In this document: in pieces, positions 1 through 41,733 of the stretch
Layout: each line of letters starts with the position of its first letter
Numbering within the stretch: position 1 is the stretch's first letter
Source of the DNA: a virus
DNA: 44,763 nucleotides
IMG/VR virus record: IMGVR_UViG_3300025674_000083
Coordinates: 1-44,763 of that record
Strand: one strand, 5' to 3'
The notes under the pieces: generated by a model
Database searches by the model: none
What the model saw: the letters and a program-made list of their open reading frames with translations, nothing else
What the model was told of the DNA's origin: nothing
Position numbers and translations under genes: made by a program

Positions 1-583
1 ATGTGTCAGCACCGTTGTCTGCTGCACCTTCAGGAATAGCGTCACTCCACCGTATAGAATAAGGCAGAAGCGTACCATTATCGTTTAAGTTAAGAGCTAT
101 CAGATGATTCCTGAACGGAACTATCACTTCGCACTTTAGCGTAGACGGCCAGTTAGGAAGGTCTGTAAACTGAGAACCACCTTGAGTAAAACTTTGCGGC
201 AGGTCTAGCCCATTGTTGACAACAAGCACACCACCTAGAACACCACCTTGCCAGTTGTTATCAGTGCCTGACAAGGTTGTGTAAGAGCCGCTAGACCTTG
301 TAACACTAGAGTGCGTTGTACCACTAATTTTATACAGGTCTGTTAGACCTCCGTAAATCCAGAGATCAGTAGAACCTTGTCTCCAGCTAGTAATCCAGTA
401 AGGGGCAGCACTGGGAGTACCTAAAACCTGAGAATGCCCTAAGATAGAACTTGCTTTTCCATCGTTAAAGCGTATGTTTTTAACCGTGGAAAACATATTA
501 GGTGGCATGTCATAGGGAGACAAGTCTGAGTTAAAAGTAAACCCAGCTTGGATTCCATTTATGTCAAAAGCCTCTTTAGCCAC
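1..583 (-). CDS. Tail tube (nozzle) protein of phage B, 3' end cut off by window
   Basis: Begins with a GTG at 583 and is open to the window edge (194 codons). The GTG overlaps the stop region of the 47-aa ORF upstream, which is normal coupling in this block. The visible part opens MAKEAFDINGIQAGFTF and is rich in Gly/Thr/Ser beta-type sequence. Its position directly after an adaptor gene matches gp12/gp10-like tail tubular proteins, and the phage A gene at 37341-38981 has the same position and general character (N-terminal 'genome annotation' segment, then repeated beta strands). In podoviruses this protein forms the tube below the adaptor ring. The call rests mainly on synteny; the catalytic-style motifs that would prove it do not exist in this family. 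Joining the window ends would stop this frame two codons on, so it is truncated, not circular. Confidence 0.6.
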   Translation of the reverse strand, partial: MAKEAFDINGIQAGFTFNSDLSPYDMPPNMFSTVKNIRFNDGKASSILGHSQVLGTPSAAPYWITSWRQGSTDLWIYGGLTDLYKISGTTHSSVTRSSGSYTTLSGTDNNWQGGVLGGVLVVNNGLDLPQSFTQGGSQFTDLPNWPSTLKCEVIVPFRNHLIALNLNDNGTLLPYSIRWSDAIPEGAADNGADT

Positions 584-719
584 TTCCCGTACTATCCTGT
601 TCTGTCCAAACGGTGTTATCAAATTCTTGAAGAGCCAAGGCAAAACCATTTTCTGTGTAAATGTTTCCGCCAGACTCTTGGATAATAGTCTGCTCAGTTA
701 TGACCCAGTTAGTAGGCAT
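576..719 (-). CDS. Hypothetical 47-aa protein between adaptor and tail tube (phage B)
   Basis: A short frame starting MPTNWVITEQT, with its ATG sharing one base with the adaptor stop (TAATG). It ends eight bases inside the next gene, whose GTG is at 583. The tight coupling on both sides is the main reason to believe it is translated. The sequence has no recognisable domain, no membrane segment and no cysteines. An alternative is that a frameshift splits the 5' end of the tail-tube gene, but the next frame has its own good start, so I favour a small separate gene. Confidence 0.45.
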   Translation of the reverse strand: MPTNWVITEQTIIQESGGNIYTENGFALALQEFDNTVWTEQDSTGSG

Positions 720-1342
720 TATGTACCCTGCACTGACATGGTTAATACAGTACCAGCATACAACGATTTTTCTTCGCTTTCTTTGACCTCTGCCATAGTT
801 TGAGCAAAGATGGAAGCAAATCGCTGAGACTGTTCAGTGTCGTTCAGATAAATAGCACCTTCCATGCAACTACCGAACAAGTACAACGCTGGATAATTCG
901 TAATAATATCGTTAGTAAGGTTAGAATCAGACAGAGCACTTAGTTTTTTATAATAGTTAATATTAATTGTATAAGCCCCGTCTGGCGTAGGCAATAGTTT
1001 TAAGTTATCGCCTACCAAAGTATAAGCTCTAGGGTAACCGCTTGTAACGCCACCGTACTCACGGCTAGCTGATTCCATAGACAAATAACTTAAAGCATGA
1101 CTAGAGTTAGTCGCCTCGTAAGTAATATTTTTAAGTTCTGTGATATCTGCTGGGAGGTTATAAAAAGCTTGGCTTGCAGTAGTAGTAGTTTCTGCCCTAA
1201 CTACGTTAGAGGTAACGCGCAGATCACGGTTCAAACGATCTTCGGTAAGCGTAATAAAATCAGGAATAACGCTTGTAAGGTCGTTCCTGTTAAGGTAATT
1301 AGCTATACTAGTTTTGAGTTCAGTATAGTTTGAAAGAGACAT
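719..1342 (-). CDS. Head-tail adaptor / gp11-like tail tubular A protein (phage B)
   Basis: 207 aa, opening MSLSNYTELKTSIANYLNR and then a stretch around 'TLTEDRLNRDLRV' typical of the helical start of podovirus adaptor (T7 gp11 / P22 gp4-like) proteins. The middle has the family's usual 'LPADITELKNI...Y' and 'GYPRAYTLVGDNLKLLPTPDG' pattern, a beta segment seen in the T7-like tail tubular A proteins of marine phages. It joins the portal ring to the tail tube. ATG overlaps the preceding stop by one base (TAATG). The phage A counterpart at 38971-39627 has the same layout, including a 'DNDIHFWPTPDAVYDIKINVV'-type segment, but is clearly diverged. Confidence is high on family and moderate on which ring position it fills. 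Confidence 0.75.
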   Translation of the reverse strand: MSLSNYTELKTSIANYLNRNDLTSVIPDFITLTEDRLNRDLRVTSNVVRAETTTTASQAFYNLPADITELKNITYEATNSSHALSYLSMESASREYGGVTSGYPRAYTLVGDNLKLLPTPDGAYTININYYKKLSALSDSNLTNDIITNYPALYLFGSCMEGAIYLNDTEQSQRFASIFAQTMAEVKESEEKSLYAGTVLTMSVQGT

Positions 1343-1647
1343 TAGATTTTGCTTTCATGTGTCCTAAGCCAACGATACTCAGGATCGTTAAGAAGCTTTT
1401 TCACTTTTGGCATATCATTCTTGTTCATAATGTCTACGCCAAGTTCACGCTTCCACTTTTCAATAATAATAAGCGGAATACTAGCTACTTTACGCATACC
1501 ATTGGTTTCTACACCACCGTAAAGGTAGTCCTTGTTTAGTTCTTTTTTATTAAGCTCTAGCAGAGGCTCAATGTCTTGAACATTTTCAAGAATAACTTTA
1601 TCTTCATTGTGGTCGTAGTTAAACTTGGTTTTAATAGGTTCGTCCAT
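1342..1647 (-). CDS. Conserved podovirus protein of unknown function (101 aa, after capsid gene)
   Basis: Start taken at the ATG giving MDEPIKTKFNYDHNEDK. A longer frame upstream runs through the terminator hairpin and is unlikely to be coding. GAGGAC lies a few bases before this ATG as a ribosome site. The sequence has an acidic N half, then 'MRKVASIPLIIIEKWKRELG', and ends 'LLNDPEYRWLRTHESKI'. This pattern (basic patch, then 'LNDPEYR.LRT' at the C end) recurs in small proteins found right after capsid genes in many podoviruses. The function is unknown to me; a structural or assembly role is inferred from place only. It lies just downstream of the capsid terminator, so its level may depend on read-through. 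Confidence 0.65.
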   Translation of the reverse strand: MDEPIKTKFNYDHNEDKVILENVQDIEPLLELNKKELNKDYLYGGVETNGMRKVASIPLIIIEKWKRELGVDIMNKNDMPKVKKLLNDPEYRWLRTHESKI

Positions 1648-1656
1648 AGTGTCCTC

Positions 1657-1687
1657 AAAAAGGCGGGGAGAGCACAAGGCCCTCCCC
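1657..1687 (-). terminator. Intrinsic terminator after the phage B capsid gene
   Basis: Read on the minus strand, a 9-bp GC-rich stem (GGGGAGGGC pairing with GCTCTCCCC, one wobble) with a 5-base loop is followed by GCC and a run of five T. It sits ten bases after the capsid stop and before the 101-aa gene. Placement right after the capsid gene parallels T7, whose late terminator follows gene 10. Confidence 0.75.
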
Positions 1688-1696
1688 TATTGTGTC

Positions 1697-2659
1697 TTAC
1701 GACAGATCGTACACAGCGCCGAGAGCCTTCTCGTTCTTTACAACAAGAGTGTACTCAGCAATGATCGCACGTTGCTCACCGTCAGAGGTGCTGGCAACTT
1801 CCTTCTGTTCAAACGGACGCAGATAAGCTACGCCGTAGTACTCAGGATCAAGAAGCCACACATCACGGCTACGCTGGAAGCGGTTCGGGACAACGGCCAT
1901 TTCACCGAAGTCCGAAACATACACGTCCATGCCACCAATAATACGCTGATCAGCAACATCATTAAAGTTGCTAACGCCCGACGCGCCACCAACACCAACA
2001 AAGCTGGAGAAGGTCTGCTTCTGCGCCGGAGCCATCATCAAGTACTTGGTGTCGGCACCGTTGTCATACGCCAACAGAATCGAAGCTTTGAGCAACGTTT
2101 CCGTAAACGTCCGTTGCGTACCGTCAGTACGAGCGGTACCCGCACCACCGGAACCAGCAGCCGTACCACCAGAGCCAACGCTAGCATTGGTGGTTACCCA
2201 GGAGCTAAGAGAACCAAGCTTACGCACGGTGCTGTCAGCGGACATAGCAGTCTTGCTCTGGTTAATACCAACCAGAGAAGTTTCCATGTCGCGCTTTAGC
2301 TCTTTTGCCCGTTTGGACATCTGGTAAGCAAGCTCTTGCTGACGGCCCGCTTTGGAAACAGCATCCAGAGTGCCTGAAACCAGGGTGGTTTTCAAGCTGA
2401 TCTGGCAGATGTTACCAACACGAGTCGTAGCAGCCGGTTCAGCAGCAGTAAGCGTCGAACCTTCCTCGTGGTAGTTGGTGCTAGCCGCAGCGGCCAGGGA
2501 GTCCGTCTGCCACTCGTGGTTAACCGCAATAGCATCTTCGCGGCTTCCCATTGACATAAACGGGGTTTCAGTAGGGGAGATATCGTAGATAACGTTTTCC
2601 AGGTCCTCCCGAAGACCAGCAGCGGAATACGTTACATATACACCAGTAGGCTGTGCCAT
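1697..2659 (-). CDS. Major capsid protein, DUF5309 (SU10-like) type (phage B)
   Basis: 320 aa. The N-terminal part 'YSAAGLREDLENVIYDISP' followed by 'TPFMS', then 'HEWQTDSLAAA' and 'TRVGNICQISLKTTLVSGT' are the hallmark sequence of the DUF5309 family, the SU10-like HK97-fold coat. 'GRQQELAYQMSKRAKELKRD' is the long spine helix. A Gly/Ala/Ser-rich run at about residues 161-180 looks like a flexible surface loop. The C-terminal third is beta-rich and ends 'VVKNEKALGAVYDLS'. It lies directly downstream of a scaffold gene and is followed by its own terminator. No N-terminal propeptide or protease gene is visible, so a separate scaffold protein probably drives assembly. It is a different family from the phage A coat at 11273-12196, the clearest sign that two phages meet in this window. 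Confidence 0.9.
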   Translation of the reverse strand: MAQPTGVYVTYSAAGLREDLENVIYDISPTETPFMSMGSREDAIAVNHEWQTDSLAAAASTNYHEEGSTLTAAEPAATTRVGNICQISLKTTLVSGTLDAVSKAGRQQELAYQMSKRAKELKRDMETSLVGINQSKTAMSADSTVRKLGSLSSWVTTNASVGSGGTAAGSGGAGTARTDGTQRTFTETLLKASILLAYDNGADTKYLMMAPAQKQTFSSFVGVGGASGVSNFNDVADQRIIGGMDVYVSDFGEMAVVPNRFQRSRDVWLLDPEYYGVAYLRPFEQKEVASTSDGEQRAIIAEYTLVVKNEKALGAVYDLS

Positions 2660-2683
2660 TAGTAATGTTCCTTTATAAGAGAG

Positions 2684-3649
2684 TTACAACAAATCCATGA
2701 AAACTGCTGCGGCATCTCTGGTATTACCCGTTTTGGCAAGCCGCTCACGTTTAGCTTGAGAATCACGCTTTGCTTTTTGCCCTTTTGTTGCAGGAGTACC
2801 TGACTTCAGAACCTTCTTTACCTGTTTAGTGTTTTTGGAACTGACGCCTGATTTGTTTTGATCGTGCAAGTAAGCTTTGTGCAACATGAGAACAACCTTG
2901 TGATCGGTTATTCCGTCTACGTCTTGCTCCGAAAAGCCTGATGACAGAGCATACTGCCTAAGATCGTTCTTTAGAGTAGAACTTGGGTCAGCATATTCTG
3001 GCAAAGCTTTTGCCAAACTTTGCGCCTCTTCGGACAAACGTTGTTGCAACGCATAAACAATTTCTTGATTATTTTGTTGCTGCACTCTCGCCTGTTCTTG
3101 CTTGATCTCTACAATCTTGTCTTTAGCTTCTTGGTACTCTATGCGTTTTTCCATGTACTCCGTTGGATCATCTTCTTTCAATGTTTTCCAATCAACGTCA
3201 CGGAACTTGGCTAGCTCCATATTTTGGTAGTCAGCCATATGTGCAAGAACTTCAGAATACTGTCCTCGCTCTTGCTGTACAGCCTGTAGGTTTGCTTCGT
3301 AAGCTTTACGTTGCTCTGCTAAAGACTGTGACTTACGGGTATAATCCGCTTGCCGCTGATATCCGTTTCTAAGTTCATCAAGGGTAACCTCAAACTCTTC
3401 GCCGTCTACCTTTACGGTATAGCTTTGTAAGGGTTCCTCAAATTCCTCTTCAACTTCTACCTCTACTTCTTCAACCTCTTCTAGCTCTTCTGGCTCTTCG
3501 AGTTCTTCAAACTCTTCCGGTTCTTGAACTTCTTCTTGAGGTTCTTCAATAGATGTCTGCTCTGGATTAGTGTCCTCACTTCCGAACATTACATCATACA
3601 TTGTCTTTTGCTGGACTTCCCCTTGGGGATTAGTCTCAGTGTCACTCAT
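2684..3649 (-). CDS. Capsid scaffold protein (phage B)
   Basis: 321 aa from the ATG giving MSDTETNPQGEVQQ; AAGGAG lies six bases upstream and falls inside the longer frame, which decides the start. Residues about 35-75 are almost pure Glu with Val/Leu/Pro, encoded by a (CTT/CTC)-rich repeat. Then comes 'YTVKVDGEEFEVTLDELRNG' and 'YQRQADYTRKSQSLAEQRKA', a segment that recurs in podovirus scaffolds. A long coiled coil runs to about residue 200, and the C-terminal tail is Lys-rich ('KKVLKSG', 'KGQKAKRD'), as expected for the coat-binding end of a scaffold. Its role is to template capsid assembly, after which it leaves the shell. It overlaps the 75-aa gene by 8 bases and immediately precedes the capsid gene. 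Confidence 0.8.
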   Translation of the reverse strand: MSDTETNPQGEVQQKTMYDVMFGSEDTNPEQTSIEEPQEEVQEPEEFEELEEPEELEEVEEVEVEVEEEFEEPLQSYTVKVDGEEFEVTLDELRNGYQRQADYTRKSQSLAEQRKAYEANLQAVQQERGQYSEVLAHMADYQNMELAKFRDVDWKTLKEDDPTEYMEKRIEYQEAKDKIVEIKQEQARVQQQNNQEIVYALQQRLSEEAQSLAKALPEYADPSSTLKNDLRQYALSSGFSEQDVDGITDHKVVLMLHKAYLHDQNKSGVSSKNTKQVKKVLKSGTPATKGQKAKRDSQAKRERLAKTGNTRDAAAVFMDLL

Positions 3650-3869
3650 TACGGTCTCCTTCAATTACGTTGTTGTGTATTAAAGACTCCAGGTCTTCGA
3701 TAATTGATCTAAGAGCTAAACTCTTGTACCAGTAAAACTCTCTGTCATCTTGATTATCAGAATATTTCCATTGTTCAATAATAGATATTTCTAGGTTACT
3801 AACTACCTCCTTAAAAACTTCATTGTCTAAAATAACTTTAGCCTGTGCGGCTTTCTCTTTTGTGTTCAT
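3642..3869 (-). CDS. Small acidic protein next to scaffold (phage B)
   Basis: 75 aa, Glu/Asp-rich and helical, opening MNTKEKAAQAKVILDNEVF. Its ATG shares a base with the stop of the collar gene, and its end overlaps the scaffold start. The C half ('REFYWYKSLALRSIIEDLES') has the same layout as the 78-aa phage A protein at 13057-13293, also found just before the scaffold gene ('LFYRKGQVDILNMMINLED'). I infer that the two are distant counterparts. The function is unknown; proteins of this kind between portal and scaffold are common in podoviruses. Confidence 0.6.
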   Translation of the reverse strand: MNTKEKAAQAKVILDNEVFKEVVSNLEISIIEQWKYSDNQDDREFYWYKSLALRSIIEDLESLIHNNVIEGDRNE

Positions 3870-4354
3870 TACGTTTTAATCATAAACCTAATTGGTTGAA
3901 ATTTAACTACGTCTGTCCCAGTAGCTGCTAATTCTGTGGTAGCTGTACCAACATTGTAGGTAGAGCCAGCACCGACTGGAAGATAATCTCTGTAGTCAGG
4001 AACTTTAAAGTCTGTACCTGATTGTCCAAAAGTTGTTCCAATGACGCCGTACAACGTTGCATAAGTCGTAGTGCTATACGCAGAGCCGTCGCACTCTAGC
4101 CAATCGTTAACACCACTGATAGTCTGTGTGCTAGGAATACTGGCAGCAAACATGCACACAGTCCCAGGCTCAAACCCCAGTTTGTTCATCTGTGTGACAG
4201 TGGCGTTAACAGCGGAAGCAGTAAGATTAGGAAACTGCGTTTTCAGAACGGTTTTGATCATTCTGATATGATCGTCACCTTCTGAAATATTGTCGCTAGA
4301 TGTGGGATTTAAAGCGTTTAGCTGGCTTATATAACTTGCGGATTCTACACCCAT
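3869..4354 (-). CDS. Tail collar-domain fibre protein (phage B)
   Basis: 161 aa. The N-terminal part, 'YISQLNALNPTSSDNISEGD' then 'HIRMIKTVLKTQFPN', is the usual head of short phage fibre proteins. Residues from about 82 ('PGTVCMFAAS', 'WLECDGSAY', 'ATLYGVIGTTFG', 'FKVPDYRDYLPVG') are the phage tail collar domain (Pfam PF07484). Such proteins sit at the tail tip and can bind the host surface. AAAGGGG precedes the ATG. It is the first gene on the left side of the shared repeat that belongs only to phage B. Phage A instead has holin and endolysin at this place, so the repeat joins two different gene orders. Confidence 0.85.
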   Translation of the reverse strand: MGVESASYISQLNALNPTSSDNISEGDDHIRMIKTVLKTQFPNLTASAVNATVTQMNKLGFEPGTVCMFAASIPSTQTISGVNDWLECDGSAYSTTTYATLYGVIGTTFGQSGTDFKVPDYRDYLPVGAGSTYNVGTATTELAATGTDVVKFQPIRFMIKT

Positions 4355-4416
4355 GGATCGCCCCTTTCAAGGCTAGTAAGTAATTATATCAAAAATTTGA
4401 AGCCTTGTCAACAAAA

Positions 4417-4734
4417 TTATACTTCTGTGCCTTTTTTGTTTTCTACGTCTATTAGCATAAAAACACCTTCTTGACTTTCCCAGACTTCCATACTTTCGTT
4501 CATAAAGTTAATAACAAAATGTTTCTTTTTCTTTTTGAACATATAATATGTGGGAAACATTATGCAATGCTGTCTTTCTAAGAAATAATTTGCCAGGGAA
4601 CTAAAAGCAACTTTGTCTTTTACCTTGTCTACAGCTTTAAAAAACTCAGCATCTTTGCAAACAAATCTTGAAAATAAGTATTCCTCTGGGTTTTCAGCTT
4701 GTGCTAAGCTAGTTAACAGGAGGATGCTTACCAT
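4417..4734 (-). CDS. Small secreted protein of the lysis region, copy 1
   Basis: 105 aa from the ATG giving MVSILLLTSLAQAENPEEYL: a short hydrophobic leader with a likely signal-peptidase site after 'LAQA'. The first 26 bases lie inside the 3' end of the spanin-like gene in another frame, like Rz1 within Rz. There is no lipobox cysteine at the cleavage site, so a classic o-spanin lipoprotein is not supported. The mature part has a Lys run ('KKKKKHFVINFMNES'). It is identical to the copy at 40511-40822 except for the last nine codons, where the repeat ends (VENKKGTEV here, LELGKEV there). The likely place of action is the periplasm; the function is uncertain. Confidence 0.6.
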   Translation of the reverse strand: MVSILLLTSLAQAENPEEYLFSRFVCKDAEFFKAVDKVKDKVAFSSLANYFLERQHCIMFPTYYMFKKKKKHFVINFMNESMEVWESQEGVFMLIDVENKKGTEV

Positions 4735-5068
4735 TGTGCATAGACTTGAGTTTATCCACCTCCGACATAACGTATTTAAAAAGGTCATCAAGTTTTTCCA
4801 CTCTTCCAGCTAAGTATTCTAATTCTCTGGAACGTTTTTCTAGGTTGTTTGGCGATAAAATATCAGATATTACCTTTACCCTGCTTTCTAGCACTTCCTG
4901 GCTAGCTATGTAATTTTCTGTCTTACTTTCCAAGTTTTGTATTTCTTGCGTTACTTTTAAAAGGTCTTGTACAGCACGTCCTAACTGACTACGCACAAGA
5001 CCCCAAGTAGCAGCTATGCCGCCTATAACAGTTGCTATTGTTAATAGCTCCCTTACGCCTAGTTCCAT
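4709..5068 (-). CDS. Membrane-anchored coiled-coil protein, possible inner-membrane spanin, copy 1
   Basis: 119 aa, opening MELGVRELLTIATVIGGIAA: one hydrophobic segment at about residues 8-24, then a long coiled coil ('AVQDLLKVTQEIQNLESK', 'LAGRVEKLDDLFKYVMSEVD'). One N-terminal anchor plus periplasmic coiled coil is the layout of an Rz-type i-spanin, which helps disrupt the outer membrane after the endolysin has cut the wall. A secreted gene starts inside its 3' end, another Rz/Rz1-like trait. It lies wholly inside the 1.94-kb repeat and is identical to 40797-41156. An alternative is an XhlA-like holin accessory protein; I have no motif that decides. Confidence 0.55.
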   Translation of the reverse strand: MELGVRELLTIATVIGGIAATWGLVRSQLGRAVQDLLKVTQEIQNLESKTENYIASQEVLESRVKVISDILSPNNLEKRSRELEYLAGRVEKLDDLFKYVMSEVDKLKSMHNGKHPPVN

Positions 5069-5084
5069 ATTTGTTACTCTTCAA

Positions 5085-5636
5085 CTAAGGAGTTTCCTCG
5101 ACTACAGGCTCTTCTGCTGGAGCTTCTTCAGCAACAGCTTCTTCGACTACAGCCTCTTCAACAGCAGCTTCTTCAGCGGGAGCCTCTTGAGCAACAACCG
5201 GCTTCGGCCATTTGTCTTTCACAGCTTGAATACTTTCCTGCCAAGTTGTCGTGCCATCCTTTGAATCGTGGAACTGGGCATCAAGCTGGTCCTCAATCGT
5301 GGGATAGTCCCGCCGACGCAATGACACGTAGTCGTAGTTCTCGTCTCCCGGCGCAGGGTCTGGATTTTTGGGTCCAACTTTCTTAGGACGTTTCCACGAA
5401 CCGTCTGAGTACTCCAGCGAACCGTATCCAAGATTGACGGGTCCGTCACCTTCGACCGGCTCAAGAACCTGACGGATGAACAAGCTACGACCTTGTTCGT
5501 CGTACAGTTGCTCGTTTACTTTTGCACGGCTGGTTTGCCCGCCGTCAGGGCGAAAGACAACAGCCAGCGACTTAAACATCTGCCGACCCTTGCCGTCGTT
5601 GACAATCTGGTGTTCTGAATTTTCGATTACATACAT
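5085..5636 (-). CDS. XkdW-like tail fibre-associated protein, copy 1
   Basis: 183 aa, opening MYVIENSEHQIVNDGKGRQ. The middle 'RRRDYPTIEDQLDAQFHD' with 'TTTWQESIQAVKDKWPK' matches the small XkdW-like proteins that follow fibre genes in many phages and are thought to help fibre assembly or attach to the fibre. Residues about 150-183 are a low-complexity tail of repeated Ala/Glu/Val/Pro units (APAEE, AVEEA, VVEEA). It follows the fibre gene with a 9-base gap on the same strand and is entirely inside the repeat, identical to 41173-41724. The link to fibre assembly is inferred from family and place. Confidence 0.65.
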   Translation of the reverse strand: MYVIENSEHQIVNDGKGRQMFKSLAVVFRPDGGQTSRAKVNEQLYDEQGRSLFIRQVLEPVEGDGPVNLGYGSLEYSDGSWKRPKKVGPKNPDPAPGDENYDYVSLRRRDYPTIEDQLDAQFHDSKDGTTTWQESIQAVKDKWPKPVVAQEAPAEEAAVEEAVVEEAVAEEAPAEEPVVEETP

Positions 5637-5645
5637 TTTTATCTC

Positions 5646-8600
5646 CTATCGTGCAGTAGCAGGGCTAGACCCGGCGAATGGGTTTTCGGCGAATGCGGCG
5701 TAGATGTACGTTCCACCGCTCACGTTGTTACCTACAGATGATTTGATTTTGAGACCGTTCGAAAGCACATCGACATTAACGCCTGTAGCTTCTTCTACAC
5801 TACTGTTTAGCTGGATATATGATGTTTGAACGTTGTAGGGTTCTCGGGCATTATCCCAACAGTACCAAGCACCGGCAGCATCGATCCGCTTGATCATTAT
5901 GTAGGCAGGTTTGAAATCTAGCAAAACCACGGGGCCGTTTGTGCTTGCATTACCTGTGTAACTTCCAAAAGCTGAATATCCCGGTATGCTGCGGAAGCAG
6001 TAGGCGATATGGTTATTTGCTGCCCCTTGGTCGTTGACCGCACCAGACGTTCCTACGCTAAACACAAATGGGGATGTTGAGCTTGGTGCGGTATCGTTCC
6101 AGAACGTGTTGCTGTCCGCTGTCCCATTTACGAGGTTTAGTATAAGATAATCAGTCTCAGGAGCAGATGTATTGCCGGAATGATAAACTGCCCAATTGTC
6201 GCCTGCGTTATCTAAGTTTTTAACCAAGATTAGGTCCAAGGCTCCTGTCTGCCCATGCCCTACTGTTCCTGCACCACTACCATTTGTAGAGGTGTATTTT
6301 ACAATGGAAAAGCCCGCTGTGTCGTTCACATTGACCGTACTGGGAATCGACCCGTCAGTGTTGCTGCTACCGCTAGTGCCGTCGCCTTTCCACCCCCAAC
6401 CAACATATGTACTTCCGCTATCGTTCAAGTTTGAGAAAGTGGACGCAACATCAAGTGTAAACCCGTTAGCATCTAAAGAGGAAAAATAACCCGCTGTTCC
6501 GGTTGTTCCACTGTCTAATTCTGCGCCACTACTGTCGGATTCAAGCGAATACATAGCTGTACCGTCATCGCCTCTTACCTCATCTACTAAAACATGAGAC
6601 TTACTGCTATTCCTACGTTTAGCCCACATTAAATCAGGCGGTAGTGCGCTATTTCCTGAAAAAGTGAGGGATCGTGGAGCGTTGTTGTCACCAGACCATT
6701 TTATAGCTTGGAAGTGTGCCGTGCCGTCTTCGATGGCTGGGGCAGCGTTGGCGTAGAGGTTGGTTGTGTCTAACCCCAAAAAACCAGAGGTTGGCGTTCC
6801 AGTGAAATCATTCTCATTGAATACAACATCAATTTCTGTCGATCCTGAAGCGTAGGGCGCAGCGACAAACTGCAAAATACCATCTTCGGGCGACAAACCA
6901 GCAGTGCCAGAATAGACGCTTACACCATCGTCAAAGAACTCAATTGTGTCAGTGTCAACGTCATATTCAACACGAATGACAGAAGCTCCTGGAGCGGTTA
7001 CTGACGTGACGTTCACACCATTTTTTTCAACTGCACCACCGAAATCTATGGTGAAATGTTCGCCAGTGCCAACGTCAGTACCTCGTGTTGCGGCTCTATC
7101 TCCAATGCCAAGTTTGCCATTAGTGCCGGTTGTTCGTTGACCTTCAAACACCCACTTACCAGAGGATGGGATGGTCATGCTTGAACCAACCCAGTCAAAA
7201 TTTGTTCCTGAACCAACGCAATGTAAGTTGCCTTTTGAAAGCGTAACGTCAGAATTTTTGCCCAAGGGGGTTAATGTGGCGACATTGTTGGTGCAAGTGT
7301 CGCTGGACTGCGTGGGTGAGCCTGATGTTTTGAAGTTATTAGCACCGTTCAGAGCAACAACCGCGAGAGAGTTACGGTTAGTGGCCGCGCTTGCCGTCGC
7401 TGTTATCGTGACGGTCTGAGCCGTTGAGTATTCGTCATACGTTCCGGCATGACTGGCGTTCGCTCCAGATTCAATTGTGGCGTCAAATACTTCCGTGGCT
7501 CCAGTATATGATATTGTGCAAACACCCGCCGAACCCTGAACTCCGCTGACTGCAAGAACAATCCCGTTTGCAGGGCAGCTTACAGAGCCAGAAGGTGTGC
7601 TACTCGTAGCCGCTTCGGTGTAGCTATCGTAAACAGAAAGACCTGTGGCTGAATTTATTGTCCAGATGCCAATGCCGCATTTCTCCATTGTGCCGCCGGT
7701 AACAGAAACGACCACATCAGCGGTTGTCCCGGTTGTCACATTAGCAACCCAGAAGGCGACATCATTATTATCATTGCCCTCAAGGTAAAGAAGTTGGTTT
7801 GCGGTAACCCCGCCAACCGTGACTCCTGAGAAATTAATGCCGCTTGCGCCGCCGCCCGTCACCGTCGAAACGATCACCTGTCTGTCAGCATCAGCCGTTC
7901 CGATATCCTGAGAAGAAAATGTGTAAGAACTCGCGGTGTTCGACGTATCAACCGCGTTCGTTTCGTATTGTCCGCCAGATACATCGCCAGAAATACTTTC
8001 GTCCGCACCTAACGCATTTGCGTCAGTAAACGGCAAATAGAAACCGTTGTTCCCAAACGTAAGGCCAGCATTTGCAATATCTATCGGACGCCAAACGCCG
8101 TTGGTGTCGTATTCGCCAAAGCTGGTCTCGGTTAAGGCTGTTCCGTCTATATAACAATATTCAGATAAGTATCCGTCCCAAAACTGAGTACTGGCTTGTC
8201 CAATGTCCAAGGTATCAGCATCAAAAAGAGTGCCGTCGCCGTTTTGTGCAATATTATACTGTGCTGTATTGAAAGCAGTAATTTCAGAGCCGTTAAGATA
8301 CATCTTAGCTCTATCTGAAGCGGTTGCTTGTGTTGTGTCTTGTACTACAACCAAATGATACCAAGAATGAGGATCACGAAACACTTGAGTAGTTATAAGT
8401 TGAATGGCAACGCCACCAGCTTCGTTGTAATAGGTTAAAGTATCGTCAGCGTTTATTCTTATAAAACCAAGCGCAGCAGTCCTGCGTTTAAGAAGATAAG
8501 TAACAATACCTAGATTGCCACGCTTAAACCAAAAAGAAACCGTAAATGTTTTCAGATTACCAGCAGCACTTGGAGTACGAGTCAGATACTGACTGCTCCC

Positions 8601-8687
8601 ATCATCCAGCACGATGCTGTTATCAACCGAGTAACCGCCGGTAGCAGCACCGGCAGCGCCTAGTAGCGCATTACGGAAGCCTGTCAT
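5646..8687 (-). CDS. Tail fibre protein with LamG-like and SPRY-like domains (phage A)
   Basis: 1013 aa from ATG at 8687 (MTGFRNALLGAAGAATGGYS), chosen because it shares a base with the upstream stop; a 22-residue extension further upstream is Arg/His-rich and lies in the previous gene. Residues about 20-230 are a concanavalin/LamG-like lectin domain ('FTVSFWFKRG', 'WYHLVVVQD', 'YLSEYCYIDG'), followed by a beta-sandwich section, then a SPRY-like segment near 'GKWVFEGQRTTG'. The C-terminal part, from about residue 766, lies in the perfect repeat ('DGSIPSTVNVNDTAGFSIVK', 'GAWYCWDNARE') and is a conserved fibre end. This is probably the receptor-binding fibre. It shares short conserved linkers with the phage B fibre but the domains between them differ, a mosaic pattern. 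Confidence 0.8.
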   Translation of the reverse strand: MTGFRNALLGAAGAATGGYSVDNSIVLDDGSSQYLTRTPSAAGNLKTFTVSFWFKRGNLGIVTYLLKRRTAALGFIRINADDTLTYYNEAGGVAIQLITTQVFRDPHSWYHLVVVQDTTQATASDRAKMYLNGSEITAFNTAQYNIAQNGDGTLFDADTLDIGQASTQFWDGYLSEYCYIDGTALTETSFGEYDTNGVWRPIDIANAGLTFGNNGFYLPFTDANALGADESISGDVSGGQYETNAVDTSNTASSYTFSSQDIGTADADRQVIVSTVTGGGASGINFSGVTVGGVTANQLLYLEGNDNNDVAFWVANVTTGTTADVVVSVTGGTMEKCGIGIWTINSATGLSVYDSYTEAATSSTPSGSVSCPANGIVLAVSGVQGSAGVCTISYTGATEVFDATIESGANASHAGTYDEYSTAQTVTITATASAATNRNSLAVVALNGANNFKTSGSPTQSSDTCTNNVATLTPLGKNSDVTLSKGNLHCVGSGTNFDWVGSSMTIPSSGKWVFEGQRTTGTNGKLGIGDRAATRGTDVGTGEHFTIDFGGAVEKNGVNVTSVTAPGASVIRVEYDVDTDTIEFFDDGVSVYSGTAGLSPEDGILQFVAAPYASGSTEIDVVFNENDFTGTPTSGFLGLDTTNLYANAAPAIEDGTAHFQAIKWSGDNNAPRSLTFSGNSALPPDLMWAKRRNSSKSHVLVDEVRGDDGTAMYSLESDSSGAELDSGTTGTAGYFSSLDANGFTLDVASTFSNLNDSGSTYVGWGWKGDGTSGSSNTDGSIPSTVNVNDTAGFSIVKYTSTNGSGAGTVGHGQTGALDLILVKNLDNAGDNWAVYHSGNTSAPETDYLILNLVNGTADSNTFWNDTAPSSTSPFVFSVGTSGAVNDQGAANNHIAYCFRSIPGYSAFGSYTGNASTNGPVVLLDFKPAYIMIKRIDAAGAWYCWDNAREPYNVQTSYIQLNSSVEEATGVNVDVLSNGLKIKSSVGNNVSGGTYIYAAFAENPFAGSSPATAR

Positions 8688-9259
8688 TACTGCATGTCCA
8701 ATCCAGCAGCAAAGCCGTACCAAGTGGTGCCGCCGTCGATTGTGGTGAAACAAAGAATGTCTTTACCCGCTGCCGTAAGCGTTGGCGCTGTACCACCGGC
8801 CCAATCAACTGCTGCGGGCCAGTTGACCGTCTGGCTTCCGCCGTTGGTTAGATACAGAACGAATCCGCACTGCTCGTCGCTTGCAGTTGGGTTGCTGAAT
8901 GTGAAAGTGTTTTCGCTCGTATCGACGGTTGCGCTGACGGAGTTGCCTAGCGTCAGGTCAATGTCGATCGTGCCGCCGCCCGTTGAGCCGATGGCGTTGG
9001 TGACTTCGCCGTAGTCTTTGAGGTTAAGTCTAGAGACAGTATTATCATTAAAATCAGTTGCTTCGTCATTTTTAACTGTAGCAGCATCATACTGTTGAAG
9101 AGTTACACCAAGGTCAGTAGAATCGTATTTACTGTTTACAGCAGTTTGAACAGCAGAAAACTCAGTATTAAAATCACTGCCTGAAATAACTTTATTAGGA
9201 TCAGCGTCAGCTAAACCATCTTTGCCAGACCAGCTTACTTGAATTGTATAATCGCTCAT
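8687..9259 (-). CDS. Fibre-associated or baseplate structural protein (phage A)
   Basis: 190 aa, opening MSDYTIQVSWSGKDGLADAD, then 'VISGSDFNTEFSAVQTAVN', a head found on many short fibre proteins that count particles per 'NTEF...A'. The C half is beta-rich ('TFSNPTASDEQCGFVLYLTN', 'TVNWPAAVDWAGGTAPTL', 'TTIDGGTTWYGFAAGLDM'), typical of phage fibre-tip repeats. It ends by sharing a base with the long fibre start, so the two are co-translated and probably assemble together, with this one linking the fibre to the tail. The role is inferred; the family has no catalytic residues to check. Confidence 0.6.
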   Translation of the reverse strand: MSDYTIQVSWSGKDGLADADPNKVISGSDFNTEFSAVQTAVNSKYDSTDLGVTLQQYDAATVKNDEATDFNDNTVSRLNLKDYGEVTNAIGSTGGGTIDIDLTLGNSVSATVDTSENTFTFSNPTASDEQCGFVLYLTNGGSQTVNWPAAVDWAGGTAPTLTAAGKDILCFTTIDGGTTWYGFAAGLDMQ

Positions 9260-11272: not shown

Positions 11273-12196
11273 TTACGCAGCCGGTACAACAAAGGCCACA
11301 CCAGCATTGTTACGGAGTTCCGCAACACCGTACAGCGTGTCAGCCGTAAAGAGATCACCAAGATACTCTTGTTTGTACTGAGTCTGAGAGCGAACTCCCA
11401 TCTGCTCCGCAAGGCACAAAGCGTCTTTGTGAAGCATGACACCAACGCGACCACCGGCTGAATCAACAGACGGGCAGTTAGACGAAACATAAACGTCCAT
11501 ACCGTAAATTGAACCAATTTTGCCGGTCTTAATGGCATTACCGTCACCAATGTACTGCTGCTCAGTAAAACGGTTAATACCAAGCATATCGTTTGCAGCA
11601 ATCGGAGGAATAACCATGCAACGGTTATCCATCGGAACATCAGCATTGTCCAAGGTCAAGATCATTGCACGAATACCAGCATCCGTAATGTCGGTGTCAT
11701 TCGGCGTACCACCCGTATACAAGGTCGTACCGTCGCCACCAATGACGGCCTTTTCGTACTCAGCCGCACCGGAACCACCGACCGTACCGCCCTGAAGACC
11801 TTCAGCCAACGCAAAGATGTCCGTGTCAACCTGAGTCGCCAGAGCATAACCAGCATCGTCAGTGTAGAACCGACGAAGAGACTGTAGCGCCTGAACTTCA
11901 GTAATGTCTTCAATAACAACTGAATATTCATAGTGCTTGTTAATGCTCACGTTTACGGTAGAGTGAGTATCACCCTGAAGCGTAACTTGAGTGTTAGCCG
12001 ATTTAGCATTGGCCGAACCACGAACAGGCGCAGGAATGTGAATGGTGTCACCTTTCTTGCCATTGTGGTTAATTTTAGTAACAACATTTGCCAAAACAAG
12101 ATTAGACTTGTAAGTAGCAATAACTTCGTCCGACCACAGTTCGGGAATAAAATTCGCCGCAGTAGTCGTAGTTTGATGGTTAGAACCCAAAGCCAT
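11273..12196 (-). CDS. Major capsid protein (phage A)
   Basis: 307 aa. The opening 'FIPELWSDEVIATYKSNLVL' with 'GKKGDTIHIPAPVRGSANA' and then 'YEYSVVIEDITEVQALQSL' is a familiar capsid pattern in podoviruses with HK97-fold coats, of the kind often grouped with the P22 coat. The C half includes 'NADVPMDNRCMVIPPIAAND', 'GKIGSIYGMDVYVSSNCP' and 'GRVGVMLHKDALCLAEQM', the usual P-domain-like layout of these coats. It lies directly after the scaffold gene. It shares only the general 'GMDVYVS' segment with the phage B coat and is otherwise a different family. The exact capsid subfamily is inferred from pattern memory. Confidence 0.85.
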   Translation of the reverse strand: MALGSNHQTTTTAANFIPELWSDEVIATYKSNLVLANVVTKINHNGKKGDTIHIPAPVRGSANAKSANTQVTLQGDTHSTVNVSINKHYEYSVVIEDITEVQALQSLRRFYTDDAGYALATQVDTDIFALAEGLQGGTVGGSGAAEYEKAVIGGDGTTLYTGGTPNDTDITDAGIRAMILTLDNADVPMDNRCMVIPPIAANDMLGINRFTEQQYIGDGNAIKTGKIGSIYGMDVYVSSNCPSVDSAGGRVGVMLHKDALCLAEQMGVRSQTQYKQEYLGDLFTADTLYGVAELRNNAGVAFVVPAA

Positions 12197-29841: not shown

Positions 29842-31351
29842 TTGTTTCCTCTCGTGGTCTTAGTGTAGATTTAGCTGCTCTTAAGGAACCAAAGCCCGCT
29901 ACGTCAGCAAAAAGTCTGCTGTAATCTTTACGAGTGGGCTGGAGTTTAGCTACGGCTTGTGCTCTTGCCCACTGTTCTCTAGTCTTAAACCCTGCTGGTA
30001 CTTTACCAGAGACATCTACACCAGGAACTTTCTTGTAGTTCTCTATAGCTCTAGCCTCAGCAGCTACCTTCTTATTCTTGAGTTTAGCTTGAGCCTTCAA
30101 CTGTTTAGCTGTTGGCTTCTTTTTCTTTACCAAATCGTACACGATAGGTTCAGATACATTCATGTATCTAGCAGCCCCTGGCATCTTTTGCCCTAGCATA
30201 TCGTGTTCATCATTAACAATAGACACAAGCTTACCACGTTTGTTAATGGCAGTCATGTAGTTAGCACCACCTATTTCAAAGGCGTCTGTCTTTGCTGACC
30301 CAGTAACAATAGCTGGTTTACCTTTGAGAACAGCATCTGGATTTAATACACGCACCCCTGCTTTCTCTAGTTTATCTAAGAACACAGCATCCCTGTTGAA
30401 CCCCTTACCGCCTTCAAACACTTCACTCTTCAGTTCATTCATGGTCTTGCCACCAAACATAGGAGACTTGTCAAGTCCTTGCTGTAGGTTACCAGCGGAA
30501 CCAGAATGCACCCTACGGATATTCATCTGGTAATCTTTACCCTTCATGCCTATAGCTGGTAAGGTTTCAATTTGCTTAAAGATTTCTCCTACCTCGTCCT
30601 TAGCCATACCAGATAGATCACCAACAGTATCATAGTAGTCATCTACGTTAAACTTCTCAAACGTAGCAACGTGATCAATCTCGTCTATGTTATTTAAGAA
30701 ACCTTTAGATGCTGAAGTACCTTGATACTGATTAATCATAGACCGGGATTGGTTTAATTGGCCCATAGCTTTCTTAGCTTCTTGGGAAGCTGTAGACCGT
30801 AGTGCTTTAGCCTTCTCATCTATTGCTTTAAAAGCTGGAGTGTTATCTTCCCCTGCCTTCTTCATCTTACGAAGTTGACCCTCTAAAGATCGAAGGTCAG
30901 GGGTAACTTCTTCAGATATTTTAAGAGCGTTACGTGCAGCCTTCTGGTCAGCAGCACTAATATTAAATTCTTTTTGTATTGCTCTCGCTTCTGGAGCGTA
31001 CCTTGATTTAACCATATTGCTAACGCCTTCAGGCATTGTGTTAGCCCACGCTGCAGCTTGTTTAATCCTGCCTCCTCCACCATAGAACCCTGGAATATCA
31101 TTACGTAAGTTGGTCATAGCCTTCTGTGCAGTACGTGTGATACCAGCAGAAGGAACCCAAGGTAATAGACCAGCAGCCATCAGCCCAGCGTTAGCCCAAC
31201 TAGGGTCGTCGTATAAATTCTTAGCGTCAGCGCCAAACCCTACTATATCACCAACTACAGGTATAGGAGCGGTAGCTAGGGCGGCTCTATCCCACCAAGG
31301 CATATCGTCCCATATCTGTTGGAACAAACCTTTCTCTTTTTTATCAGTCAT
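29834..31351 (-). CDS. Internal virion (ejection) protein, 505 aa (phage A)
   Basis: Opens MTDKKEKGLFQQIWDDMPWW. Residues about 20-75 form a hydrophobic Gly/Pro/Ala-rich segment ('AALATAPIPVVGDIVGFGAD', 'AGLMAAGLLPWVPSAGI') like membrane-inserting parts of ejection proteins. Coiled coil ('LRSLEGQLRKMKKAGEDNTP') follows and then a folded C half ('GMKGKDYQMNIRRVHSGSAG', 'GANYMTAINKRGKLVSIVND'). The family is not certain. Its place as the last large gene of the tail/ejection series and 8-base overlap with the 955-aa gene support a role inside the head, ejected with DNA. A toxin-like C-terminal domain is conceivable but unsupported. Confidence 0.6.
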   Translation of the reverse strand: MTDKKEKGLFQQIWDDMPWWDRAALATAPIPVVGDIVGFGADAKNLYDDPSWANAGLMAAGLLPWVPSAGITRTAQKAMTNLRNDIPGFYGGGGRIKQAAAWANTMPEGVSNMVKSRYAPEARAIQKEFNISAADQKAARNALKISEEVTPDLRSLEGQLRKMKKAGEDNTPAFKAIDEKAKALRSTASQEAKKAMGQLNQSRSMINQYQGTSASKGFLNNIDEIDHVATFEKFNVDDYYDTVGDLSGMAKDEVGEIFKQIETLPAIGMKGKDYQMNIRRVHSGSAGNLQQGLDKSPMFGGKTMNELKSEVFEGGKGFNRDAVFLDKLEKAGVRVLNPDAVLKGKPAIVTGSAKTDAFEIGGANYMTAINKRGKLVSIVNDEHDMLGQKMPGAARYMNVSEPIVYDLVKKKKPTAKQLKAQAKLKNKKVAAEARAIENYKKVPGVDVSGKVPAGFKTREQWARAQAVAKLQPTRKDYSRLFADVAGFGSLRAAKSTLRPREETNE

Positions 31352-34211
31352 CCCAATAAGTCCTGTCTTGCCATTTCTCTAGACCACCACCAAGATAGTT
31401 GTATAAAATAGTCCCTAGACCTGGAATCATTTTGTACACTTTACCGTAGTCTGGTTCTTCCTTGAAAGGTTCAGTAATCAAACCGCCAGCAATGTCTACT
31501 AGAGGAGCAGCAGGAGCAACCTGATTAGCTAACCATTCTGATATCCTGCCAGTGCTAATATATTTATCAGTGACGTACTTAGAACCACCATAGATACTAG
31601 CAAGAGACCAAAGGGCTTCAGTAGGTAAGTCATTAGGATCGACTTCTCGTCCTAGTGCTATATTCTTTGCAGTGTCAACAGCGAGGTTACCACTGGACAA
31701 CCAAAGTCCTAACAGTGTAGCGTTCCTTAGTGCTTCTTTCTTGTTCCCTTTTCTCCACTTCTGGACAACATCCCTTCTAACAACATCGTACTGCTTTAAC
31801 ATAAAGGACTTGAGCATATATAGGATACGAGCGTTAGGATTGTCTAACTGCACTTTGGTCATCTCACTAAGCGTGATAGGCTGAACACCAGAAAGCTCAG
31901 TGAATAGATGTTGCTTTACCAGAGGGGTAATTCTACCAGCTTCAAGGTCAGCTAACAACGCTTCCATCTCTGGGCCATAAACATCCCCCCACTCTTTAGT
32001 CAACTTCTGTCTGCCTTTAGAAGTTTTAGCTAACTTCTGACCCTTCTTAAGAGCGGCGTTAATGAATGTGGTTTTACCCAAACGGTCAATAGCTTTAAAA
32101 CCAGATACCCCTAACATCTTATCCAGAGCTTTTGACAGAGCACTAGGGTTACTAAACTCATGGGACACTGTGTTGTACAAACCAATGTCCTTTAGCGACA
32201 TCTTATTACCACCAGGGATAATAGCCTTAGCCAGAGCTACAGCACCGTGCTTGTACCCTGTCATGCTTAAGTCCCCTAACTGCTTGGCAGCGGACATAAC
32301 GTCAGCAATAGTTCCCATGTACCCAAGGTCTCTGACTGCACCAATAACATTATGTGGTGATTGTTCAGCTTTAGGGTTGAAACGTGAACCTAATAACTCT
32401 ATAAGGTTTGACTCCTGAAGTTCATCAATCTTTCCAGAATTTCTAAGCTGCCCTAAAAGGTTAGCTATTCCGTCATTAACTTCTTGCTCAGGATTGTCTA
32501 CAGTAAGTTTAGGGGGGTTAGCATCACCTGCCAACATACGTCTACGCTCTGCAGTATTGGTAGCAAAACGTATGTACTTCTCTAAAGCTTCTTCAGGTTT
32601 GTAGTACTCCCCTCTTAACTCTTCAGGTATTCTAACAAACTGTCTCGACTTTTCAAAGCTAACTTTACCAGTAGGACTCTGCCTAACCTCGAACCCTTTA
32701 ACTAGGTTCTCAACTATGTCTTCCTTAACCTGAGCAGGGATTTGATGTACCGATATCTTATTAGATTTTGCGTATCTCTCTAGGTTTACATTAATAAGAT
32801 TTTGTTCACGTTTGCCTAACTTAAGGCGCATGGAATCTATGTCCTTCACCATACGTGGGAAGTAATCAGATACGTAGTCGAAAGTAGAACCAGTGTCTTT
32901 CAAGTCTCCGTAGACTTCTTTCAGAACACTCTTAACAGGCTGGAAAGCTTCATACGCTTCTGGTGCATACCTCTCCATAATACCTTCAGCAGCCTTAAAA
33001 TTACCGTCATTTAGGTACATGGTAACGTCACCGTACACCCTCTGATCCATATCTTTTAAGGCTCTACTGAACGCTTGAGTTTTCTCAAGACGCATTTCAG
33101 TCTTGTAATGAACATCGTGCTCAAACTTCATAAGCCTTTTGAATACGTCAGGGGAGTAGTTACGAACACGAGTAGAGATTGTCCCTAATGCGTTGTCGAT
33201 CCATTGGTTCTTAACACGGCTTACAGCACTATCATTAGCCATAGCGTGTTGAACCTCACGTTCACCTTTAGAGGGGACACCGTAGTACGGATCAGAACCC
33301 GTGCGGTTGAACGCACGTACAATTTTATCTGTAGACACTTTAAGGTCATCTGCAATCTGAGGAATTACAGCGTCACTAACTTCTACTCCTTGGTTCTTTA
33401 AGTCATCAATCTTTTTATTAACTTTACGGACTAAGCTCTTATCCAGTCCCTGTATTAGTTTATCACCAGCAAACTTAATTGCCCCGCCTGTAGCAGCACC
33501 TGCAACAGTACCTACAAGAACATTAACAGGGTCAATAGTTCCTGTCTTAGATAAATCACTAGCTGCAGCGAATGCTCCACCATAGGCACCACTTGCTGCA
33601 GTAACACCTTTAAGACCTGCGCCAACAGGCAGAAGAGTAGAAGGGTCTGCCATAGAGCCTACTACAGTACCTGCCATCCCTGCCAGAGAGTCTTCGTCTT
33701 CCCTAAAGTCTTGTCCCCACTTCTGCTGTAGCCACTCAGCCCTTTTCTTGGCTATCATGTCCCTACGTTCCTGGGGTGTCGCATCAGAAAAACCCTTGCC
33801 CCACCGCTCATCTGCAGTTTGATAACCAAAACCCTCAACGTCATCATAAGCAAAACCACCAAGAGGCATCAGAGACTCAAGGTAGTCTCCGACCATTTGT
33901 GTAAACCCTTCAGACTTGTCGTACTGATACTTAAACTGGGCTAGACTATCGTTGTATCTTGTACGTACAAGCTTACCCTCCCTTACAATGTCCCCTGGTT
34001 CTGCTCCCTTTTCCTGTAGATTAGGGTACATAGAGATGTCATCTTTAGTTAGAATGTACTCTTCAGCAGTAGAATCTTCTTGTTTTTGTGCGTATTCTTC
34101 TTGTTTAACAAGCTTACCGTCTATAACTTTATCACCTACTACAGCACCCTTTTGTTGAAGATTAGGGTAGTCCTGTAAGTCCTGATCAGTTATGGTGAAA
34201 ACTTCCGCCAC
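31344..34211 (-). CDS. Large internal virion (ejection) protein, 955 aa (phage A)
   Basis: GTG start (MAEVFTITDQDLQDYPNLQQ) overlapping the previous stop by a base (TAGTG). Two copies of a 32-residue unit at about 5-36 and 52-83 share 'YPNLQ.KGA..GD.V..GKLV'. Then come a Gly/Ala-rich hydrophobic stretch (about 175-240) that could enter membrane, and a long helical body ('YTKTEMRLEKTQAFSRALKD'-type helices near 370). It is similar in layout to T7 gp16-like or P22 ejection proteins, with no lysozyme motif visible. It probably forms part of the conduit across the host envelope during DNA entry. Confidence 0.65.
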   Translation of the reverse strand: MAEVFTITDQDLQDYPNLQQKGAVVGDKVIDGKLVKQEEYAQKQEDSTAEEYILTKDDISMYPNLQEKGAEPGDIVREGKLVRTRYNDSLAQFKYQYDKSEGFTQMVGDYLESLMPLGGFAYDDVEGFGYQTADERWGKGFSDATPQERRDMIAKKRAEWLQQKWGQDFREDEDSLAGMAGTVVGSMADPSTLLPVGAGLKGVTAASGAYGGAFAAASDLSKTGTIDPVNVLVGTVAGAATGGAIKFAGDKLIQGLDKSLVRKVNKKIDDLKNQGVEVSDAVIPQIADDLKVSTDKIVRAFNRTGSDPYYGVPSKGEREVQHAMANDSAVSRVKNQWIDNALGTISTRVRNYSPDVFKRLMKFEHDVHYKTEMRLEKTQAFSRALKDMDQRVYGDVTMYLNDGNFKAAEGIMERYAPEAYEAFQPVKSVLKEVYGDLKDTGSTFDYVSDYFPRMVKDIDSMRLKLGKREQNLINVNLERYAKSNKISVHQIPAQVKEDIVENLVKGFEVRQSPTGKVSFEKSRQFVRIPEELRGEYYKPEEALEKYIRFATNTAERRRMLAGDANPPKLTVDNPEQEVNDGIANLLGQLRNSGKIDELQESNLIELLGSRFNPKAEQSPHNVIGAVRDLGYMGTIADVMSAAKQLGDLSMTGYKHGAVALAKAIIPGGNKMSLKDIGLYNTVSHEFSNPSALSKALDKMLGVSGFKAIDRLGKTTFINAALKKGQKLAKTSKGRQKLTKEWGDVYGPEMEALLADLEAGRITPLVKQHLFTELSGVQPITLSEMTKVQLDNPNARILYMLKSFMLKQYDVVRRDVVQKWRKGNKKEALRNATLLGLWLSSGNLAVDTAKNIALGREVDPNDLPTEALWSLASIYGGSKYVTDKYISTGRISEWLANQVAPAAPLVDIAGGLITEPFKEEPDYGKVYKMIPGLGTILYNYLGGGLEKWQDRTYWDD

Positions 34212-37340: not shown

Positions 37341-38981
37341 TTATCGTATTTTGCCAAGCTTTGATAAAAGCACGGCTGTAATTAAAGTTGATGCTTTACC
37401 CTTAACTTCTGTAGTCATTTTAATACGGATTACCCGACCAGTACGTGCAAGAGGAACTCTATATTGTCTTGGACTAGCAGCAGGAGCATACTTAGCAATA
37501 CCGTATAAAGAAGTTTGATCTCCCCATAAATACGTAGTAGCGTCTGATGTAAGGGTAAATGTTTTTGAGTAGATGCTGTCCTCTTCGTAATCTTTAGAAA
37601 TAAAAATAGTACTCGTAGCGTCTTCACCGCCACTAATAGACATCAATCCAGTTTTAACAATTTTAGCTACAACAGGCTTTCCAAGGTCTAACCAAGGACT
37701 TTGAAAAGACCAGTTGTATTGATTGTTTGTGTAAGCCCAACAAATAGGTGATCTCCAAGTGTTACCAGCAGCTTCACAAACACTTTGATTGCCATAAGTA
37801 CCTGTAACGTCACTAATTGATACATCATAGTAACCATCATACTCTGCTACAGAATTAGATAAACCCATGTACATTTTACCATCAACGGTACTAAAAGCAC
37901 AAAGAGGATTATCGTTAAAAGTCCAAATAGTAATACGAGGAAATTCTTTCTTACCTAAAGCAAAATCAAAACAATACGCAATGTCATCATCTGGCATAAA
38001 AGTAACAACAAAACCTTCTTTTTGATAGTAACAACTTTTAATATTGTCTACGTCAGCATCAACTAAAAGACGTACTAAAGCGTTACGGACAGTAGTTGTA
38101 AGTCCTTCTAGCGGTGATCTACCATCTGTTTGAGTTGTACGTTGAAAAGACTCTAGACCTTCATAAGAAAGAAAGACTATGTCAGCACCTACGTACACAA
38201 TGTTGTCACGTCCAGCAAGTCCTTTATCTCTAATTAGTTCTTCAAGAACCATTGTTGATGGGTCTTCAGCACCCTTGTAAATTGCTATATTTTCTTTACC
38301 AAAAATAACAATCTTATTTTCTAAAGCAGCCAACCCAACAATTTCATCATTGCCCCAGACTGTATGTAAATCTAAAACTCCTGCAGCACCACCAGTAAGT
38401 TTTTCACCGATAAGGTTATCAGAGTAGTACAGAGTGCCAGGGTCTTCAGTAATACCACCGTACCACATACGACCAAACTCACCTAAACCACAAGAGGGAT
38501 CAAAGGTAGTGGGACCAGTAGGCGCTGCGTAAGCACCTAAGTCATCAATATCGTACCAGTTAGTTCCATCATAATTTATAACCTTATGTCCACTTTGGAT
38601 ACCCCAAAACTCAGTGTTAAAGTTAATCCACTGCCAGTTACTATCAGTGATAGTCTGGGGTGTACCAGAAAAAGACTGAGTAGTTAAGTTGTTAGGCGTT
38701 ACTGTAGTATCTAGTTTTACAATAGTACTGCCAGAACCACCAAAGCATTCTGTAGTACGATCACTTTTAGTATAACATCCAAAAGATTTTACTGGAGAAG
38801 CTACAGTCTTTGATATTTGTTTAACACCTTGACGTGGTCCCATACGACCTTCAAGGTCATATACAATATTTTCAGCCTCAGTCAACCACTCTGGACCTAG
38901 AGTAGAAGTCTGCCCCTGAGTATTAAGTCCTCTTGAGCCTAGCCCATTAAGAACAATAGGTGTTGTAGGTTTAGCTGGCAT
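37341..38981 (-). CDS. Tail tube (gp12-like) protein, phage A
   Basis: 546 aa, opening MPAKPTTPIVLNGLGSRGLN. The N region 'NTQGQTSTLGPEWLTEAENI' then 'YDLEGRMGPRQGVKQISKT' is the 'map the genome of the tail' pattern found in tail tubular B / nozzle proteins of podoviruses. The centre is beta-propeller-like ('VIFGKENIAIYKGAEDPSTM', 'GLAGRDNIVYVGADIVFLSY'). It forms the tail nozzle below the adaptor. It overlaps the adaptor end by 11 bases. Counterpart of the truncated gene at 1-583 in phage B but diverged. Confidence 0.75.
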   Translation of the reverse strand: MPAKPTTPIVLNGLGSRGLNTQGQTSTLGPEWLTEAENIVYDLEGRMGPRQGVKQISKTVASPVKSFGCYTKSDRTTECFGGSGSTIVKLDTTVTPNNLTTQSFSGTPQTITDSNWQWINFNTEFWGIQSGHKVINYDGTNWYDIDDLGAYAAPTGPTTFDPSCGLGEFGRMWYGGITEDPGTLYYSDNLIGEKLTGGAAGVLDLHTVWGNDEIVGLAALENKIVIFGKENIAIYKGAEDPSTMVLEELIRDKGLAGRDNIVYVGADIVFLSYEGLESFQRTTQTDGRSPLEGLTTTVRNALVRLLVDADVDNIKSCYYQKEGFVVTFMPDDDIAYCFDFALGKKEFPRITIWTFNDNPLCAFSTVDGKMYMGLSNSVAEYDGYYDVSISDVTGTYGNQSVCEAAGNTWRSPICWAYTNNQYNWSFQSPWLDLGKPVVAKIVKTGLMSISGGEDATSTIFISKDYEEDSIYSKTFTLTSDATTYLWGDQTSLYGIAKYAPAASPRQYRVPLARTGRVIRIKMTTEVKGKASTLITAVLLSKLGKIR

Positions 38982-40509: not shown

Positions 40510-40510
40510 A

Positions 40511-41156: not shown

Positions 41157-41172
41157 ATTTGTTACTCTTCAA

Positions 41173-41724: not shown

Positions 41725-41733
41725 TTTTATCTC

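Follow-up and report, generated by a model that had tools for sequence, protein, structure and literature searches.

A host recognition module shared across phage families has been described in the Alteromonas phages A5, V22 and P24, which differ in morphotype and are otherwise unlike in sequence; the copies there resemble each other at about 59%, and isolates were used to test what the fibre does (PMC10579305). The locus described here resembles that case in that a fibre and its neighbour genes are shared as a block between otherwise dissimilar genomes, with transfer inferred. It differs in that nucleotide sharing reaches 91-100%, that the edges are defined at base resolution and that the evidence comes from metagenomes only. 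The exchange between the two phages treated below, which we call A and B, is apparently younger and better delimited than the Alteromonas one, and it is host-recognition-region mosaicism of an already known type with unusually clear limits.

Two further systems are relevant. Chimeric contigs have been documented and benchmarked for virome assemblies (PMC5610896), and our contig resembles them in having two genomes joined through a common region; unlike them, it would follow a whole circular genome once around, in a figure-of-eight, with a repeat spacing that equals the genome length. B also recalls the SU10-type phages, because its capsid matches SU10_MCP and the portals of its relatives match SU10_portal (Pfam), but unlike SU10 itself, put at 77 kb (PMC4281155), the annotated capsids nearest to that of B, less than 50% identical, come from podovirus genomes of about 33-41 kb.

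Two podovirus genomes meet at an exact repeat

The window, by which we mean the whole stretch of DNA analysed, corresponds to one virus record, linear and 44,763 bp long. Its self-comparison revealed that positions 4456-6392 equal 40544-42480 over 1937 bp with 0 mismatches, at an offset of 36,088, and a genome search placed the module at the same two sites at 100%. The 1.94 kb without a difference reported in the initial annotation is thus confirmed base for base, and at this length the repeat cannot have arisen by chance. Outside it, similarity is lost within about 15 bp on both sides: to the left there are mismatches at 4455, 4447 and 4446 and no homology below 4441, and to the right there are mismatches at 6393-6395, 6399, 6405 and 6408, beyond which patchy fibre homology alone persists (76-97% in blocks of 40-176 bp). 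The two copies form a direct repeat. Copy 1 (4456-6392, minus strand) is flanked by B on the left and by the A fibre part R1 on the right, and copy 2 (40544-42480, minus strand) by the lysis genes of A on the left and a second fibre, R2, on the right. No tRNA genes were found in the 44,763-bp window.

Between the copies lies one complete podovirus, A, which with a single module makes a circle of 36,088 bp (4456-40543). Its first gene run comprises the fibre, a 190-aa fibre-adjacent protein, the capsid, scaffold, portal and TerL; the opposite strand carries genes for an ssDNA-binding protein, primase-helicase, DNA polymerase, exonuclease and ribonucleotide reductase, and after these replication genes come internal virion proteins, tail proteins, a phage lysozyme and a holin-like gene. 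The unique part of the A fibre, R1 (787 aa), occupies 6393-8753 on the minus strand, and the A side of the left module edge (39632-40527, minus strand) consists of the phage lysozyme gene at 39632-40282 and the hydrophobic holin-like gene at 40075-40527.

Phage B is represented by positions 1-4455 (minus strand), with genes for a virion protein (phrog_3287), an SU10-type major capsid protein, a scaffold and a collar, and probably also by R2 (42481-44763, minus strand), a 761-aa fibre with a SPRY domain whose 5' end is cut off by the contig end. R2 was not found in a second contig among the contigs searched. Seventeen relatives of B join TerL and the SU10 portal, the fibre region, collar, scaffold and SU10 capsid, and many of them have a DUF7483 fibre before the collar. 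We considered and rejected a third capsid background, "C", for contigs L248, L256, L261 and L262, which represent the half of the B backbone that lies on the portal side.

Different capsid families do lie on either side of the module, as first proposed: the B capsid at 1697-2659 is phrog_1328 / SU10_MCP, the A capsid at 11273-12196 is phrog_267 / P22-like, and BLASTP of one against the other printed no alignment. To call the two phages unrelated is, however, slightly overstated, as each is a podovirus with an SU10-family portal and they have a 955-aa protein in common. Both portals match Pfam SU10_portal, strongly in the B relatives and weakly in A, and the 955-aa internal virion protein of A (31344-34211) has 32-38% identical homologues in B relatives, the capsids differing. 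Out of 24 A proteins, those matched in the B relatives examined were this protein and, weakly, one tail protein.

Gene content and edges of the module

The module encodes the genes originally listed for it, all on the minus strand: the C-terminal 248 aa of the tail fibre, which by family match include most of a DUF7483 domain (5646-6392); a 183-aa protein of unknown function directly downstream of the fibre, with matches to PHROGs 9114, 1787 and 2687 (5085-5636); a 119-aa protein with an N-terminal hydrophobic segment and a coiled coil in its sequence (4709-5068); and, at the left edge, a gene for a secreted protein (ORF 4417-4791, likely start ATG at 4734, signal-peptide-like). Two labels given to these genes did not survive, since neither "XkdW-like" nor "spanin-like" is backed by a Pfam or PHROGs model. 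The 119-aa protein has no family match above cut-off in Pfam or PHROGs, and the secreted protein, without a Pfam match, has a signal that ends LTSLAQA-ENPEEY and lacks a lipobox cysteine. An Rz/Rz1 spanin pair is accordingly not supported, as its outer-membrane partner would need that cysteine. The fibre matches tail fibre PHROGs, DUF7483 and SPRY, and from these families we infer that it may be the receptor-binding part, with a role in host recognition. Against isolate phage records the full module found no relative, apart from a weak stretch that covers 5%.

Both edges had been placed in conserved codons. This is true of the right edge (6392/6393), where the fibre end, 358 residues long, has an invariant Trp at residue 111; the left edge is the 3' end of the secreted-protein gene, where the final codons are unlike between the two copies. 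In an AlphaFold model of the fibre end (pLDDT 89), edge residue 110/111 sits at the end of a strand, with a linker next to it, between DUF7483 units, so that a crossover at this point would, if the model is right, join intact folding units. Foldseek found no match for the fibre end in the PDB below E 0.001, and a sequence search of solved structures found none either.

The contig order as a probable assembly path

The order of the window is most likely an assembly path, that is, an error and not a real molecule. This had been suspected from the start, and both the gene orders of relatives and the breaks in sibling contigs agree with it. Thirteen A relatives from other samples carry, on a single contig each, A-type head genes and then homologues of 38971-39627, most of them with homologues of 37341-38981 as well, and in five of the 13 (L023, L176, L194, L085 and L060) the fibre lies between head and tail genes. 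Given this order, the A fibre naturally leads over the module position into the lysis and tail genes of A itself. In the window it leads to the B collar gene instead, and no locus among the A-capsid loci joins an A capsid to a B collar. Both chimera junctions coincide with the exact repeat, and A and B relatives have another, simple order there.

The sibling assemblies break where such a path would branch. One of their contigs, 33,405 bp long, matches window positions 7262-40666 without a single mismatch and extends through the lysis genes of A into the module. It shares its end point, module base 123, with the B contig L088 of another sibling assembly (window position 40666 in the A contig and 4578 in L088), and the B-backbone contig L262 reaches 123 nt into a further tract that A and B share exactly (8684-8806, minus strand) and stops there. 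One documented k-list of MEGAHIT has 123 as its top k (PMC6646334); if k=123 is assumed for the sibling assemblies, the 123-nt stops would fit a de Bruijn graph break at a shared repeat. The assembler of the window itself would have walked through the repeat rather than stopping. By the 123-nt rule, the stop of the A contig at 7262 also predicts another shared edge near 7384, close to 7329, where the exact match to L248 starts failing.

Could the window nevertheless be a real molecule? A single crossover between shared modules, integrating circular A into the B module by homologous recombination, would yield exactly this structure. We think such a cointegrate very improbable, because with two complete capsid systems it would be about twice the normal genome size and packaging would be unlikely, because A is also found on a contig of its own, which ends right at the module, and because simple orders are what the examined relatives of A and B show.

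If the order is an assembly path, the identity of the two copies has to be read with care. An assembler puts one shared unitig into both copies of a repeat, and near-identical copies can be collapsed. Since one shared unitig serves both copies, module identity within one assembly is not usable as a clock, and the claim that exact identity makes the exchange very recent is unsupported as a dating.

Exchange of the fibre region in other assemblies

Exchange of the fibre region between A and B is supported at the sequence level even when this contig is set aside, for both contexts occur in other assemblies. A search of the module against viral contigs recovered two capsid backgrounds outside the window. 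L003 provides the A context on the lysis/tail side, with 2 differences in 6562 bp and 0 in the module; L004, L087 and L088 provide the B context on the collar/scaffold/SU10 capsid side, L088 with the first 123 bp of the module, so the second context is not confined to this contig. L004 and L087 are identical to window positions 4405-4747, across the left edge. Virome assembly is known to produce chimeric contigs (PMC5610896), and one might suppose that the shared module is itself an artefact, carried by one phage and misassembled into the context of the other. This we regard as scarcely credible: the A context (L003) and the B context (L004, L087, L088) were found in separate assemblies, each without the other, the B copy of the module has differences of its own, and under the artefact reading L004, L087 and L088 would each have to be a chimera joined at one and the same base.

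The extent of the sharing is another matter. That both phages have 1.94 kb in common stands as far as the two contexts are concerned, but the independent B contigs (L004, L087) are identical to the module only over its first 292 bp (4456-4747) and about 6% diverged thereafter. Over 4748-5715, L004 has 55 differences from the window (about 6%), and past 5715 the fibres are about 60% alike. An exact 30-mer from near the right edge of the module occurs in 0 of the other contigs searched, so that the right half is exact in the window alone. A B context for the complete, unchanged 1937 bp appears in this composite alone.

These observations bear on the assignment of R2, which might instead be an alternative fibre of A, swapped at 6392/6393, in which case the bridge to B would be 4456-4747 only and no B would have the full 1937 bp. 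The loss of identity in L004 and L087 at 4747 fits this reading, as do the polymorphism of fibre ends and the break of the identical A contig at 7262. We consider it unlikely, however, as it needs two independent branch points, not one, and as a bubble in A would predict that the right end of the contig overlaps the start of the A fibre by about k bases, and the last 363 bp of the contig have no match in the sequences searched.

Synonymous divergence, which the initial annotation had proposed as a check, indicates that the module is decoupled from the backbone. A comparison of the B flank of the window with L004 gave Ks values of 0-0.03 for the backbone, 0.015 for the secreted-protein gene, 0.07 for the 119-aa gene and 0.19 for the 183-aa gene, and saturation at the fibre end, a climb towards the fibre between two B lineages. 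From the low values in the backbone and the saturation at the fibre end, we conclude that otherwise identical B lineages have replaced their fibre side.

Sharing between A and B also extends, patchily, over a larger cassette of about 4456-9025. Within R1, 559 bp (6770-7328, minus strand) are identical to the B-backbone contig L248, up to the end of that contig. In the pre-fibre gene, the C-terminal part (8687-9025, minus strand) is 91-93% like the B backbone and 76% like the temperate phage L006; B-backbone contigs stay 91-93% like A from 9025 to about 8660, L256 as far as 8086, and all five of five phage alignments of this gene begin at 9025. The 112-aa domain that ends the fibre-adjacent gene is common to A, B-backbone contigs, temperate phages and MAG contigs, with differing N-termini, and a host search with it led to MAGs from several phyla, among them Alphaproteobacteria and Magnetococcales, and linked neither A nor B to a host. 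L006, which has an integrase and a repressor, shares this domain and half of the 183-aa gene. That gene is a mosaic in L006 (positions 2153-2695 of the contig), with 90% nucleotide identity in the last 255 bp and a far more diverged first half.

The lysis side has a parallel. In the B-type phage L163 the collar gene is immediately preceded by a holin and a lysozyme that resemble those of A (78% and 62%), an older exchange of the same kind. An A-like holin and lysozyme lie directly before the collar in L163 (729-2638) and L160 (1-670), and are absent there in L004.

Discussion

The explanation that we find likely is cassette exchange between A and B by homologous recombination, combined with assembler bridging over the identical stretch. 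A and B would be short-tailed phages of one aquatic community that share an adsorption/lysis-edge cassette through homologous exchange, and that they have the same host, as originally suggested, is plausible. The assembly path would then run from R2 through the module, once round circular A, through the module again and into B. The true order of A would be R1, module, holin/lysozyme and tail genes in a 36,088-bp circle, and that of B, most likely, R2, module, collar, scaffold and SU10 capsid. Crossing over would take place inside conserved stretches, on the right at the invariant Trp between DUF7483 structural units and on the left at the 3' end of the secreted-protein gene, with further edges at 8806 and 9025 in the pre-fibre gene. 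By such a crossover either backbone may gain a new receptor-binding tip with its own assembly proteins untouched.

We speculate, with some doubt, that the cassette could serve as a pool of alleles for two or more podovirus backbones (A and B among them) and, in part, for the temperate L006, drawn on so often that backbone and host-recognition type would be nearly unlinked, with fixed edges at the conserved codons 9025, 8806, 6392 and 4456. With edges fixed in conserved codons, the exchange lends itself to testing by junction-specific PCR or long reads. For the viral database, the record would be a two-genome composite to be split, with phage A at 36,088 bp. For the biology of these phages, the locus would offer a base-resolution case of two phage backbones that have recently exchanged their receptor-binding region.
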